From: Methylosinus trichosporium OB3b
GTDB taxonomy: Bacteria > Pseudomonadota > Alphaproteobacteria > Rhizobiales > Beijerinckiaceae
Length of the DNA: 64,000 nt
Reading direction: 5' to 3'
Assembly (NCBI RefSeq): GCF_002752655.1
Contig: NZ_CP023737.1
Location: 4,302,001 to 4,366,000 of the forward strand
The notes under the pieces are model-generated. The model searched no databases. It was not told the DNA's origin and worked only from the letters and a program-made list of their open reading frames with translations. Below, one piece after another: positions 3,470 to 7,641 of the stretch. The position numbers and the translations under genes were made by a program. Positions within the stretch are counted from its first letter, which is position 1, and every line of letters starts with the position of its first letter.

Positions 3470-4972
3470 TTATGCCGGAGGCAGGTAGTTCCTTAGCCAT
3501 TCAATTACAGGGCCGGCGTGTCTGCTGAGTGATTGGGCGATGTCATCCCACCCCTTTACAGAGGAGGAGATGTCCTTACCTTTGAGGAATGCCGCATAGA
3601 TGGCGTTTACCGTACTTGCTTGACCATAGTTGTGGAGTTTCACGGGATCAGGTGCATCGATAGGATCTGGGCGAGGTAGTAAAGATGAAGATAACTCATC
3701 GTCAGCCTTGCCGGGCACCATCTCGAGCGTTGGCGCGTGTTGCACTTCTAAGAGAGCCGTTGAAACATCTGACTCGAATACATTTGGAGTATGGTCCGCG
3801 ACTTCGCGAGCGAAACTTTCTACGGCATCTCGTGGTAGTGGTTCCGAAAGTGTTCCGCGCTTAACATCATCGTAAAAGCGTCCGACTCCTTCATAGTACG
3901 GACGGAGAGCTGTGTTGAGCTCAAGAATGCGATTTAGGCGCTCCGCAAAATCTCGACTCAGTATGTCTGCATCTGCCTCAAACATGCCACGTAGGACGCG
4001 CGCCTCGCAATCGGCCACGATAAAATTGCCAACCCCTGCCGCCATTGGCAAGTCCGACAGGTATCGCTCAAGAGTCCGAAGGTATCCTTCTCGTACGTTG
4101 TAGGATCGCGTCTTTAGATCGGCAGTTAAACGCTCAGCCATCTCGCGACAGGCATTCAATCGTTGCGCGTGGTCTTTTTTGCTTTCCGAATGAACAAACG
4201 AAGGCGTGTTTTCCGAGCCTGGGACAACACCGATTGTGTAGGAAGTGGTCCACCCAAAGGTAAATGGAGCAGATATGCTTTCTAGCGGCTTTTTAACGTC
4301 TAATTCGGATGTAATTTTCGAGAGAATTACGGTCTTTTGCTCGGTGTATGAAAGTCCAACTAGCGAAGCATAGTCTGTTTCGACGCCAAACTGACCTGGA
4401 TCTAGTGGTTCAACGAGAAAGTGGTATAGCTTTACTTTAGAATCGTGTGCTTGACCAATAGCTGCTTTCATTTCAGCATCACAATATAGTGAGTTTTTGA
4501 ATGCATGAGAGAGGATGGTTATGATAATTGACGATTCGTAAAAATGCTTTTCAAAGTACGTTTGCGCGGGCATCGGTTCAGATGATATTGAATTTCTGAA
4601 GGCTGAAAATGTATTATATCCTTCCAGCTCAAGCAATACGCTAATATTTCGAGCTGTATCTCGATCGCTGTCGGCGCATATAACAAATATCGCCCTTTTA
4701 TTTACAGGCAATCCAGCTATGTCTATCATCTTTTTGCTAAAAGGCATTGCAAATAATACTATATTATCGACGATAATAGATAGTAACTTAAATGTTTGGC
4801 TATTCGGAAACCTGCGGCGTAATCCCGCTGCTTTATCGATAAGTGTTTCATAGAAAAGCGTATGAAACAGCTTAGCGCCGTCGCCCGAAGCGCGCTTCTT
4901 GAAACGCCGAGGCTTCCCATTGATTTTCGTTTGAGACGAACTCAATGGCTCCCTTTGATCCGCGTTGCTCAA
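3470..4972 (-). CDS. TIR-domain-like protein with helical C-terminal region
   Basis: 500 aa, not a recognised named gene. Residues about 93-225 fit a TIR fold. RAIFVICADSDRDTARNISV is box 1 with alpha-A. A strand and loop follow with an S..EP.P segment. ITILSHAFKNSLYCDAE resembles the 'lS..y..S.wC..E' box, with E167 as candidate NADase catalytic glutamate. The final strand is KLYHFLVEPL. The N-terminal 90 residues include a hydrophobic stretch LLSIIVDNIVLFAMPF. The C-terminal 270 residues are mostly helical and unassigned. The gene is clearly AT-richer than its neighbours and uses codons the flanking genes avoid, so recent transfer is likely. TIR proteins often act in phage defence by NAD cleavage. 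That role is inferred, and no defence partner gene lies beside it. Confidence 0.55.
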   Translation of the reverse strand: MSNADQREPLSSSQTKINGKPRRFKKRASGDGAKLFHTLFYETLIDKAAGLRRRFPNSQTFKLLSIIVDNIVLFAMPFSKKMIDIAGLPVNKRAIFVICADSDRDTARNISVLLELEGYNTFSAFRNSISSEPMPAQTYFEKHFYESSIIITILSHAFKNSLYCDAEMKAAIGQAHDSKVKLYHFLVEPLDPGQFGVETDYASLVGLSYTEQKTVILSKITSELDVKKPLESISAPFTFGWTTSYTIGVVPGSENTPSFVHSESKKDHAQRLNACREMAERLTADLKTRSYNVREGYLRTLERYLSDLPMAAGVGNFIVADCEARVLRGMFEADADILSRDFAERLNRILELNTALRPYYEGVGRFYDDVKRGTLSEPLPRDAVESFAREVADHTPNVFESDVSTALLEVQHAPTLEMVPGKADDELSSSLLPRPDPIDAPDPVKLHNYGQASTVNAIYAAFLKGKDISSSVKGWDDIAQSLSRHAGPVIEWLRNYLPPA

Positions 4973-5073: not shown

Positions 5074-5340
5074 TCAGATGTGATAAGGCAGGCCGCCGAT
5101 ATAATCCTCCAGCTCCGCGCCCGGCACGGCGTCGAACCGCCCTTCGTCGAGATCGGTGAAACCGATGCGGGCCGCCTCGCGTAGCGCCTCCAGCTTCGCC
5201 GCCTCGCGGGCGTCGCGCTGCTCGATCAGCCGCAGGCCCTCGCGCATCATCTCGCTGGCGTTCTGGTAGCGTCCGGACCTCACCAGCCGATCGATCACCT
5301 CTTCATGATGATCGGTCAACACCACATTACGCGTCGGCAT
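5074..5340 (-). CDS. ParD-like (CC2985 family) antitoxin, no toxin partner
   Basis: 88 aa. The N-terminal ribbon-helix-helix reads RNVVLTDHHEEVIDRLVRSGRYQNASEMMREGLRLIEQRD, matching type II antitoxins of the ParD family that bind DNA and neutralise ParE. The C-terminal toxin-binding tail (GRFDAVPGAELEDYIGGL) is present. A parE gene would normally overlap or follow it directly on the minus strand. The 100 bases downstream hold only stops in all frames and then the AT-rich island begins. It is therefore an orphan, either decayed or acting on a toxin elsewhere. Confidence 0.85.
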   Translation of the reverse strand: MPTRNVVLTDHHEEVIDRLVRSGRYQNASEMMREGLRLIEQRDAREAAKLEALREAARIGFTDLDEGRFDAVPGAELEDYIGGLPYHI

Positions 5341-5430: not shown

Positions 5431-6228
5431 CTATTCGCCGCGCTCCTCCCGCACCCCCGCCGACGCCACCAGCCCTTCCTCGAACCAGCCGGTCAGCAAT
5501 TGCGCGATGCGCTCGGGCGAAGCCTCGACCTCGTCGCGAAAGCTCGCCATCTGGCAGATGTCGCCGAAGGCGTGGCCCTCGAGCGCGAGCGACAGCGCCA
5601 GAAACTCGTCCGGCTCGAGCTGGCGATAGACCGAATCGAGATCGGCGCGCCACACCGCGACATGCTCTGCGCCCGCGCTCGGCTCGGGAAGCTCCGCTTC
5701 CTCCACGGCCGCCGCATGGGTCGCCGTCACGCCGGCCGTGAGCTCCAGCAGAATGAGGCTCGGATGAAAGCCGAAGACGAGGCTCGGCCAATCTTCCGGC
5801 GCGAAGGCGGAGAGCGCGTCGAGGCGCAGCGCGTCGGCGTCCGCCGCGTCGAAAGCGTCGGTCAGCGCCCGCTCGAACCGCGCGAGATCGATCGCCCGCG
5901 CATTGTCGCGCCACCCCTCGGCGCCGCGCATGAAATCCGGAAGCCGGCTCGTATACCAGCGGGCGTTGCGCTTGCGCGAGGGCTCGGCGTCGATATAGGC
6001 GTCGGCGAGCGCATGAAACGCCTCTTCGCCGAGAAGCGTCCGCAGCGCCGGATAATCGGCGACGAGAAATTCGACGAAGCGCAGCCGATAGGCGCTCACA
6101 TAGACGCCGAACAAAGTGGTGCGGTCGGCGCGGCGCGAGTTCTTCACCGATTCGAGAATGCTCGCGCCGTCCTCATGGCCGGCGAGCACGCCGGCTTGGA
6201 AATGCGCCTGCAGCTCTGCGAGAGTCAT
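5431..6228 (-). CDS. DUF2063 (HvfC/BufC-like) partner protein of RiPP maturase
   Basis: 265 aa. The N-terminal DUF2063 domain is plain: YVSAYRLRFVEFLVADYPAL (43-62), then RTLLGEEAFHALADAYI and the RLPDFM segment. Proteins of this family (MbnC, BufC, HvfC) pair with DUF692 enzymes and help present the precursor peptide. The C-terminal half, with FGFHPSLILLEL and a helical end, fits the winged-helix-like region of the family. The ATG overlaps the stop of the DUF692 gene by four bases (6225-6228), so translation is probably coupled. Last gene of the three-gene operon. Confidence 0.9.
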   Translation of the reverse strand: MTLAELQAHFQAGVLAGHEDGASILESVKNSRRADRTTLFGVYVSAYRLRFVEFLVADYPALRTLLGEEAFHALADAYIDAEPSRKRNARWYTSRLPDFMRGAEGWRDNARAIDLARFERALTDAFDAADADALRLDALSAFAPEDWPSLVFGFHPSLILLELTAGVTATHAAAVEEAELPEPSAGAEHVAVWRADLDSVYRQLEPDEFLALSLALEGHAFGDICQMASFRDEVEASPERIAQLLTGWFEEGLVASAGVREERGE

Positions 6229-7073
6229 GCGGCTTCGCTCCTCTTGCCCTCCGCATCGGCCCGGGCCGCGATCTCGCGCAGGCGCGCGAGCTCGCTCAGC
6301 AGCTCGTCGAAGGGCGGGAAATTATCGTCGCGCTCGATCATCGCCGAGACCGGGCCGAAACGCCGCCAGGCGCGCTCATAGAGGGCGAACACTTCGTCGC
6401 AGACCGGCTGGTCATGGGTGTCGATGCGATGCGTGCCATTGTCGGTATGGCCCGCCATATGGAATTGCACGACGCGCTCGACCGGAATGGCGTCGATGAA
6501 GGCGTTCGGGTCGAAGCCGTGGTTGAAGCCCGAGACGAAGACATTGTTGACGTCGAGCAGCAGCAGGCAGTCGGCGCGGCGCGTCAGCTCGGCGAGGAAG
6601 TCCCATTCGCTCATCTCGGATTCGCGAAAGGTCACATAGGTCGAAGCGTTCTCGACGACGAGCCGGCGGCCGAGAACATCCTGCACGCGCATCACGCGCT
6701 CGGCGACATGGTCCAGCGATTCGCGCGTATAGGGAATCGGCAGCAGATCATGCAGGCTGATCCCATGCACGCCGGTCCAGGCGAGATGATCGGAAACCCA
6801 GGCGGGCTCGATGCGCTCGGCGAGCGCTTTCAACTCGCGCAGATAGTCGTGGTCCAGCGGGTCGGTGGAGGCGAGCGACATGGCGACGCCATGCATCACG
6901 ATCGGATAGTCGGCGCGCACGCGCTCCAGCATGGCGGTCGGCCGGCCGCCGCCGGTCATGTAGTTTTCCGAGATGATCTCGAACCACTCGACGGGGGGGC
7001 GGGAGGAGAGAATCTCCTCGTAATAGATGGGTCTCAGGCCGAGGCCGAATCCGAGAGGCGCGGGTCGCGTCAT
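6225..7073 (-). CDS. DUF692 multinuclear iron oxidase (MNIO), BufB/HvfB/MbnB-like RiPP maturase
   Basis: 282 aa, TIM-barrel fold. The metal-binding motifs are all present in order: FEIISENYM (31-39), MHG with H61, SDH with H96, VVEN with E141, LLDVNN with D174, HMAGH with H205 and H209, DTHDQP with D218/H220, and IERD with E247. MNIO enzymes use two or three irons and oxygen to turn cysteine side chains of a precursor peptide into oxazolone/thioamide or thiooxazole groups. The substrate here is very likely the Cys-rich peptide encoded 88 bases upstream. The ATG at 7073 follows AAGGAGAGACGACC. Product chemistry is inferred from family. Confidence 0.93.
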   Translation of the reverse strand: MTRPAPLGFGLGLRPIYYEEILSSRPPVEWFEIISENYMTGGGRPTAMLERVRADYPIVMHGVAMSLASTDPLDHDYLRELKALAERIEPAWVSDHLAWTGVHGISLHDLLPIPYTRESLDHVAERVMRVQDVLGRRLVVENASTYVTFRESEMSEWDFLAELTRRADCLLLLDVNNVFVSGFNHGFDPNAFIDAIPVERVVQFHMAGHTDNGTHRIDTHDQPVCDEVFALYERAWRRFGPVSAMIERDDNFPPFDELLSELARLREIAARADAEGKRSEAA

Positions 7074-7160
7074 GGTCGTCTCTCCTTGTGTCGCGGTCCG
7101 CGTGCGGCTTTCGCCGCGAAACCGACCGCGCCGCGACGGCGCGATCGATCGGAGGCGGCC

Positions 7161-7379
7161 TCAGTGCTTGCACTTGCCCTTGGAGCTGCAGCCCGCCTTG
7201 TGGTGCTTGCAGACGCCCTTCTTGGTCATGCACTTCGTCTTGCCGCCGCAGTGACCCTTTTCCATAGTGCATTGATGCTTGGAATGCTTGGCTGCGGCCT
7301 GCGTCGAAACGCCGCCGGCCAGAGCGAGCGCGATGGCCGTTGCGGCGAGGGTCGAGCCAGAAACGATCTTGGACTTCAT
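7161..7379 (-). CDS. Secreted Cys-, Lys- and His-rich RiPP precursor, bufferin/HvfA-like metallophore
   Basis: 72 aa. Residues 1-30 are a Sec signal peptide (MKSKIVSGSTLAATAIALAL, then AGGVSTQAAA) with probable cleavage near residue 30. The mature 42 residues hold six cysteines at 37, 44, 50, 57, 64 and 70 (gaps 6, 5, 6, 6, 5), many lysines and five histidines, with EKGHCGG and SKGKCKH turns. It has the place and build of BufA/HvfA precursors matured by DUF692 enzymes and exported to the periplasm to bind copper or other metals. The flanking residues do not match the BufA1 (DUF2282) or EGKCG patterns I remember, and the Cys spacing is nearest BufA2. The ATG follows GGGAGACCGACA. First gene of the operon. 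Confidence 0.82.
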   Translation of the reverse strand: MKSKIVSGSTLAATAIALALAGGVSTQAAAKHSKHQCTMEKGHCGGKTKCMTKKGVCKHHKAGCSSKGKCKH

Positions 7380-7450
7380 TGTCGGTCTCCCAAATTCGCC
7401 CTCCGCCCCCAAGCGGAAGCGCGAGCCGGGCCTTCGCAGGCCCAAACTCG

Positions 7451-7460
7451 AACATAGCAC
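7451..7460 (-). promoter_or_regulatory. Possible extended -10 of the RiPP operon
   Basis: On the minus strand TGCTATGTT resembles an extended -10 (TGnTATAAT) and lies about 70 bases before the precursor ATG. No good -35 hexamer stands 16-18 bases upstream. Weak call from sequence alone. Confidence 0.25.
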
Positions 7461-7641
7461 TGGGTCTTGGTTTGGAAAGAATGTTCTCCTCGGGTGAACG
7501 ACGGGAGGGGCGCTCTGCTCTTCCCTTCAAGGCGCGCAGGAGGAGAGGCGCGCCGGCGCGGTGGAGTTTCTGCCGGCGGAACGGGTTTCCAAAGGCCGCT
7601 GCGCCTTCGGTCCGGTCGCGTGGAAGGCGAGTCGCCGGACG

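Follow-up and report, generated by a model that had tools for sequence, protein, structure and literature searches.

What kind of peptide is encoded by a 72-residue open reading frame with six cysteines that lies directly upstream of a DUF692 (MNIO) enzyme and its DUF2063 partner in Methylosinus trichosporium OB3b, the methanobactin model methanotroph? The original prediction took it for the precursor of a new or divergent class of metal-binding, cysteine-modified RiPP, and here we follow up that claim in the 64,000-nucleotide stretch that carries the locus (the window) and in sets of related genomes. Our preferred explanation, to which we give a probability of roughly 0.65, is that the locus represents a bufferin-type RiPP operon in its minimal form, bufA-bufB-bufC, that its precursor is a core variant of Buf2 in which the BufA2 leader would have been kept while the core became different and rich in lysine and histidine, and that the product would buffer periplasmic copper.

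The bufA-like precursor gene occupies positions 7161-7379 of the minus strand and encodes 72 amino acids (MKSKIVSGSTLAATAIALALAGGVSTQAAAKHSKHQCTMEKGHCGGKTKCMTKKGVCKHHKAGCSSKGKCKH), an assignment based on the open reading frame, the cysteine positions and the orthologues described below. After a gap of 87 nt comes bufB for the MNIO bufferin maturase (6225-7073, minus strand, 282 aa), and it overlaps by 4 nt the bufC-like DUF2063 gene for the PME-type 1 partner (5431-6228, minus strand, 265 aa). Reading frames and Pfam matches thus agree with the predicted layout of a 72-residue peptide, a DUF692 enzyme and an overlapping DUF2063 protein on one strand, and the translation places the cysteines at 37, 44, 50, 57, 64 and 70, precisely as claimed. 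Inspection of the neighbouring genes, again as predicted, found no DoxX, sigma factor or transporter gene adjoining bufABC; downstream lie a ParD gene and a TIR-domain gene, and upstream a 3-hydroxyisobutyrate-type dehydrogenase gene and a DinB gene. The ParD antitoxin gene (5074-5340, minus strand) directly follows bufC, with no ParE partner noticed in the list of reading frames, and a 90% identical ParD relative also follows bufC in another genome (G009). The TIR-domain gene (3470-4972, minus strand; PF13676, 32.7 bits) is probably acquired DNA, since its GC content is 0.47 against 0.66 for the window. In the region upstream of bufA (7380-7641, minus strand), an alignment of nine Methylosinus upstream regions revealed a block common to most of them, TTTCAAATC ... 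GTGYTATGGTC, which looks promoter-like; no regulator site was recognised in this nine-sequence alignment.

By NCBIfam cut-off the enzyme is a bufferin maturase: it scores 381.8 bits against the MNIO_BufB model NF050167 (cut-off 310) and 372.6 bits over almost the entire PF05114 (MbnB_TglH_ChrH) model. Its partner matches DUF2063 (PF09836) with an N-terminal domain at 62.7 bits (cut-off 27.2), and its 265 residues fit a full-length PME-type 1 protein composed of DUF2063 and an RRE (PMC12452194). The kinship with metal-binding, cysteine-modified RiPPs that had been proposed therefore stands as far as the MNIO/DUF2063 operon is concerned, whereas the link to HvfA is weak, the HvfB model giving BufB 272.1 bits (cut-off 360) and the HvfC model giving the BufC-like protein 14.9 (cut-off 142). 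Among 38 BufBs aligned from the loci collected earlier, the set that also underlies the enzyme tree and the leader and core comparisons below and precedes the loci opened later, 36 carry the motif ERDD, with an aspartate after the catalytic aspartate (the exceptions being ERDN in G006 and ERDE in G144b), and none has an Arg-Arg pair. This second aspartate has been tied to Cys-Lys (BufA2) substrates, and the pattern is reported for BufA2 enzymes (PMC12668002).

The precursor itself is a less comfortable fit to its family. A leader or signal sequence spans approximately residues 1-30, with the cleavage site placed by eye between STQAAA and KHSKHQC, and a Lys/His-rich core with all six cysteines spans residues 31-72. 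Against the BufA2 model NF050166 the precursor reaches 16.8 bits (18.1 in the genome search), far below the cut-off of 60; the 42 mature residues had no match in NCBIfam, where the core of a canonical BufA2, run as a control, scored 74.1, and a Pfam search of the core returned noise only. EGKCG repeats are absent, EKGHCGG being the only approach to them, and DUF2282 (PF10048) does not match, so that the original prediction was right on both counts; comparison with the BufA2 and HvfA models likewise gave no good match and left the core outside every NCBIfam family. Membership in the HvfA/oxazolin group or in Buf1 is rejected on these family models. The cysteine spacing of 6-5-6-6-5 had been called close to BufA2, yet set against the canonical 5-5-6-5-12/13 it agrees only from Cys2 through Cys3 to Cys4 (5, 6), and the remaining spacings differ. 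Lysine follows two of the six cysteines (Cys57 and Cys70), compared with five of six in a canonical example from G005. An AlphaFold model built on five sequences has low confidence along its whole length, gives no fold and is mostly unstructured apart from one leader helix (mean pLDDT 49.3, pTM 0.23), values that, given so shallow an alignment, are no proof of disorder.

Where such a precursor comes from is answered by treating leader and core separately. Over 33 distinct precursors, the mean pairwise leader identity between the Lys/His type (KH) and BufA2 is 0.62, the same as among BufA2 leaders themselves (0.62), whereas core identity is 0.31 between KH and BufA2 and 0.63 among BufA2. Profile comparison of KH with BufA2 gives a match of 98.3% at full length (residues 1-58) and 28.9% for the cores alone; the KH cores compared with those of a still more His-rich type (HH, with CHHKxxCHHK) give 85.5%. 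Nine KH and eight HH members match the BufA2 model with E-values no better than 4.7e-5 and 1.9e-4, from which we judge that all of them stay below its cut-off; for ten canonical members the E-values go down to 4.9e-28. The BufB tree (42 sequences) unites the KH enzymes in a single clade (98/97), which lies within the enzymes from canonical BufA2 loci; the sister group of the KHx/HH enzymes (96/91) consists of the BufBs of G120, G284 and G360, which have a canonical BufA2 just upstream. One group of BufBs thus stands downstream of three kinds of core: canonical BufA2, Lys/His and more His-rich. Grouping the KH, KHx and HH enzymes into a single clade gives a p-AU of 0.165 and so is not rejected; the data do not show that KH/HH cores arose twice independently. 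Because leader, enzyme and part of the cysteine spacing derive from BufA2, the precursor is a core variant of Buf2; of the predicted "new or divergent class" the divergent six-cysteine core stands, and a wholly new class is rejected on the BufA2-like leader and enzyme.

Nor is the precursor a singleton; it is one of a family in two genera, with members that are still more His-rich. Eight of nine relatives in its genus (g1, taken as Methylosinus) carry an orthologue in which all six cysteines are invariant, upstream of a BufB that is 80-95% identical, and this together with the constraint on the core argues for a real gene and not a chance reading frame. The precursor gene is under constraint as far as substitution patterns tell: core dN/dS is 0.17-0.53 for the window copy against its eight orthologues, in each case above that of the leader, and 0.05-0.21 in six comparisons of the G003 copy with others, where it is not always above the leader's, although the pairs hold few differences (2 to 17 non-synonymous ones in the core). 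The ninth relative, G006, has a BufB that is 74% identical and no precursor upstream of it, as if the substrate had been lost, which indicates that precursor and BufB are not strictly coupled. The frame upstream of that BufB (locus L055) looks by eye like the end of glmS, and the enzyme is the one with the ERDN motif.

With the nine KH precursors as the query, 59 of 397 genomes sampled from the larger family matched (E up to 0.01), and at least one locus was opened in 57 of them (nine g1, 32 of genus g18, which is inferred to be Methylocystis, G018 and 15 more); the other two, G013 and G221, matched only weakly, at E near 0.007 and 0.006, and where a genome had multiple matches not all were covered. 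The inspected loci cover every matching g18 genome (32). In 31 of them a BufB of the window's group (76-81% identity) lies beside the match, and the precursor upstream belongs to the KH type in eight (usually with a His-rich tail), to the HH type in another 20 and to canonical BufA2 in three. Two of the eight, G310 and G330, have KH and HH precursors in tandem. The 32nd, G238 (L123), encodes an orphan KH-like peptide with five cysteines (HCKTQKHHCKARVHCKTQKSHCKGMSSCKGK); the surrounding 5 kb contain no BufB, and the genome is counted in neither group. Outside these two genera 16 matching genomes were opened, of which 15 have canonical BufA2 (G018 and 14 others, with BufB and BufC adjoining in those 14 loci) and G194 has no bufferin. 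KH and HH cores upstream of BufB are thus seen in 37 genomes of two genera only (nine g1 including the window, and eight plus 20 g18). A sample of the order (347 genomes, family members included) gave matches at E up to 1e-5 in the host genome (G000), G026, G700 and G605, that in G700 being a weak match to a canonical BufA2 and that in G605 having no plausible reading frame; a sample of the phylum (398 genomes) matched only in G000 and G026, and a scan of contigs from named genomes returned four loci, of which three bear the label Methylosinus and the fourth Methylocystaceae. In five g18 genomes (L093, L095, L096, L110, L112) and in G026 (L018) a further precursor lies upstream of the main one; this companion shares its leader and has two or three cysteines. 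In G026 (L048) the precursor upstream of BufB would, if cleaved after AYA, start with Lys-Gly-His, and an N-terminal start of this kind is a Cu/Ni-binding pattern.

A match to pmoA was found in 34 of the 37 KH/HH genomes (all except G257, G310 and G335), in a family where 51 of 397 genomes have one. A link between these cores and pMMO in general is nevertheless weakened by ten pmoA-positive genomes of genus g65, nine of which the KH alignment did not match and one of which (G261) has a canonical BufA2; since none of the ten showed a KH/HH core, pMMO as such does not require cores of this kind.

The rest of the host genome (5.18 Mb, 4 contigs) bears on what the enzyme pair may do. It contains two MNIO genes, the BufB and an MbnB that is only 27% identical to it, almost identical to PDB 7tcr and accompanied by the 30-residue M. 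trichosporium OB3b MbnA as given in PMC3621798. The window's BufC-like gene is the only DUF2063 gene over the cut-off, and the genome profile search found no DUF2282 over the cut-off. Two further BufA2 genes (genome C1:1822541 and C1:2389848; plus strand of their loci, L039 3542-3802 and L040 3849-4115) exceed the cut-off with 93.6 and 82.2 bits and are canonical orphans, since tblastn detected no BufB or BufC within the 8 kb surrounding each of them. As the genome has no other BufB or DUF2063 match above the cut-off, BufBC of the window is the only candidate found for modifying these peptides, if they are modified; it probably does so, and three precursors may share a single enzyme pair, a situation also raised for other genomes (PMC12452194). 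The BufA2 cut-off was reached in none of 14 control genomes, an unexpected outcome given that Caulobacter vibrioides, listed among the controls of the DUF2063 and DUF2282 searches, has a Buf2 system (PMC12452194).

Set beside the systems that are already described, Buf2 (BufA2/BufB2/BufC2; Buf_6/12Cys; NF050166 and NF050167) has in common with the locus the leader, the A-B-C order, the BufB family, the DUF2063 partner, six cysteines and the Cys2-3-4 spacing, and it differs in that the window core is not recognised by the BufA2 model, is spaced 6-5-6-6-5 instead of 5-5-6-5-13, is Lys/His-rich, lacks CKG...CKGxGW and is seen in two genera only. The Buf_EGKCG/oxazolin (HvfA) group, fontiphorin and captophorins share an MNIO with DUF2063, a Sec-type leader and one Lys-Cys (KC50), but the window precursor has no EGKCG repeats and its enzyme, below the HvfB cut-off, has ERDD and no Arg-Arg. 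Buf1 (DUF2282) bufferins follow the same logic of an exported RiPP operon with MNIO and DUF2063; the window has neither a DUF2282 match nor an adjoining sigma/anti-sigma or DoxX gene. Methanobactin (MbnABC), in the same genome, is likewise an MNIO-modified cysteine peptide for copper, but it serves copper uptake and not buffering, its MNIO is the 27% identical enzyme, its MbnA has no signal peptide and MbnC takes the place of DUF2063 (PMC12452194). The PMC12538549 cluster is of another MNIO/DUF2063 kind and not of the window type.

MNIO-PME1 pairs turn cysteines into 5-thiooxazoles and their products generally bind copper (PMC12452194, PMC12668002), and it is by analogy with bufferins and these other products that we infer the modification, export, copper role and function of the window peptide. 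BufC, a DUF2063 protein probably with an RRE, would bind the cytoplasmic precursor by its signal-peptide leader, BufB would carry out the four-electron oxidation of several core cysteines to 5-thiooxazoles, and the Sec system would export the peptide, after which thiooxazole thiolates and His/Lys side chains of the mature core could bind periplasmic copper and so buffer it in a cell that imports copper by methanobactin for pMMO. The leader is the likely recognition element; the signal peptide is thought, on preliminary evidence from Buf1, to be part of the recognition sequence (PMC12452194, PMC12668002), and with FonBC, from another subgroup, no leader position was essential on its own (PMC12668002). 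The fit of substrate to enzyme is uncertain, because only two of six cysteines are followed by lysine despite the Cys-Lys signature of the enzyme, and FonBC left substrates unprocessed when a charged residue followed the cysteine (PMC12668002). The main text of PMC12811070, a copper transcriptome of M. trichosporium OB3b, does not name DUF692 or DUF2063, and a term search of PMC9601215 returned no mention.

It could be argued that the precursor is just a sequence-drifted BufA2 with the same modifications and function, and that the NCBIfam model is too narrow; leader, enzyme and Cys2-3-4 spacing are shared, and six cysteines are found in 90% of Buf2 precursors (PMC12452194). We consider this unlikely, as the core is without CKGxxxCKGxGW and the last spacing of x12/13 and has Lys/His in their place, which does not resemble gradual drift, as the new cores are themselves conserved (mean identity HH-HH 0.80, KH-KH 0.70), and as canonical BufA2 persists beside the Lys/His type in the same genomes. 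The choosiness of FonBC, of a different subgroup, about residues beside the cysteine (PMC12668002) would also suit a peptide that is exported as an unmodified, metallothionein-like metal binder, with BufBC mainly devoted to the two orphan BufA2s for which the genome offers no other BufB or DUF2063 over the cut-off; however, the position directly upstream of bufB in eight of nine genus relatives, the Lys/His- or His-rich precursors upstream of bufB in 28 further genomes and the conserved, likely recognition leader make this quite improbable.

The metal is a separate matter, and a His/Lys-rich core might bind Zn, Ni or Fe or act outside copper homeostasis. His-rich cores such as CHHKxxCHHKxxCHHHKG do exist and resemble Zn/Ni sites. 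Some bufferin relatives have been suggested to act on other metals (PMC12452194), but copper binding is general for MNIO-PME1 products (PMC12668002) and KH/HH cores are seen only in two genera with pmoA, and we regard a role away from copper as improbable. The locus is best read as a methanotroph-specific BufA2 derivative, whose putative cysteine-derived thiooxazoles would, together with His/Lys, buffer periplasmic copper.

In the literature searched no description of KH/HH precursors came up, but PMC12452194 states that its supplement holds hundreds of precursors left unclassified; judged from sequence, what would be novel here is not the machinery, which is known, but the metal-binding part, a probably copper-holding variant outside the family models tried. 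A wider reading is possible but doubtful as a whole, namely that type II methanotrophs have given one bufferin maturase a second, purpose-built family of substrates with Lys/His-rich cores, combining thiooxazole with imidazole ligands, that these would form a periplasmic store or donor of copper for methane monooxygenase and not a detoxification sink, opposite to methanobactin import, and that a fixed leader with a replaced core would let one BufBC process three different precursors. If the preferred explanation is right, the methanobactin model methanotroph possesses, for conditions of copper excess, another MNIO-peptide system, and nature has provided a series of cores (canonical, Lys/His and His-rich) under almost one enzyme, which would let one ask whether a bufferin maturase needs the leader or the core, and what histidine ligands do to copper handling near methane monooxygenase.
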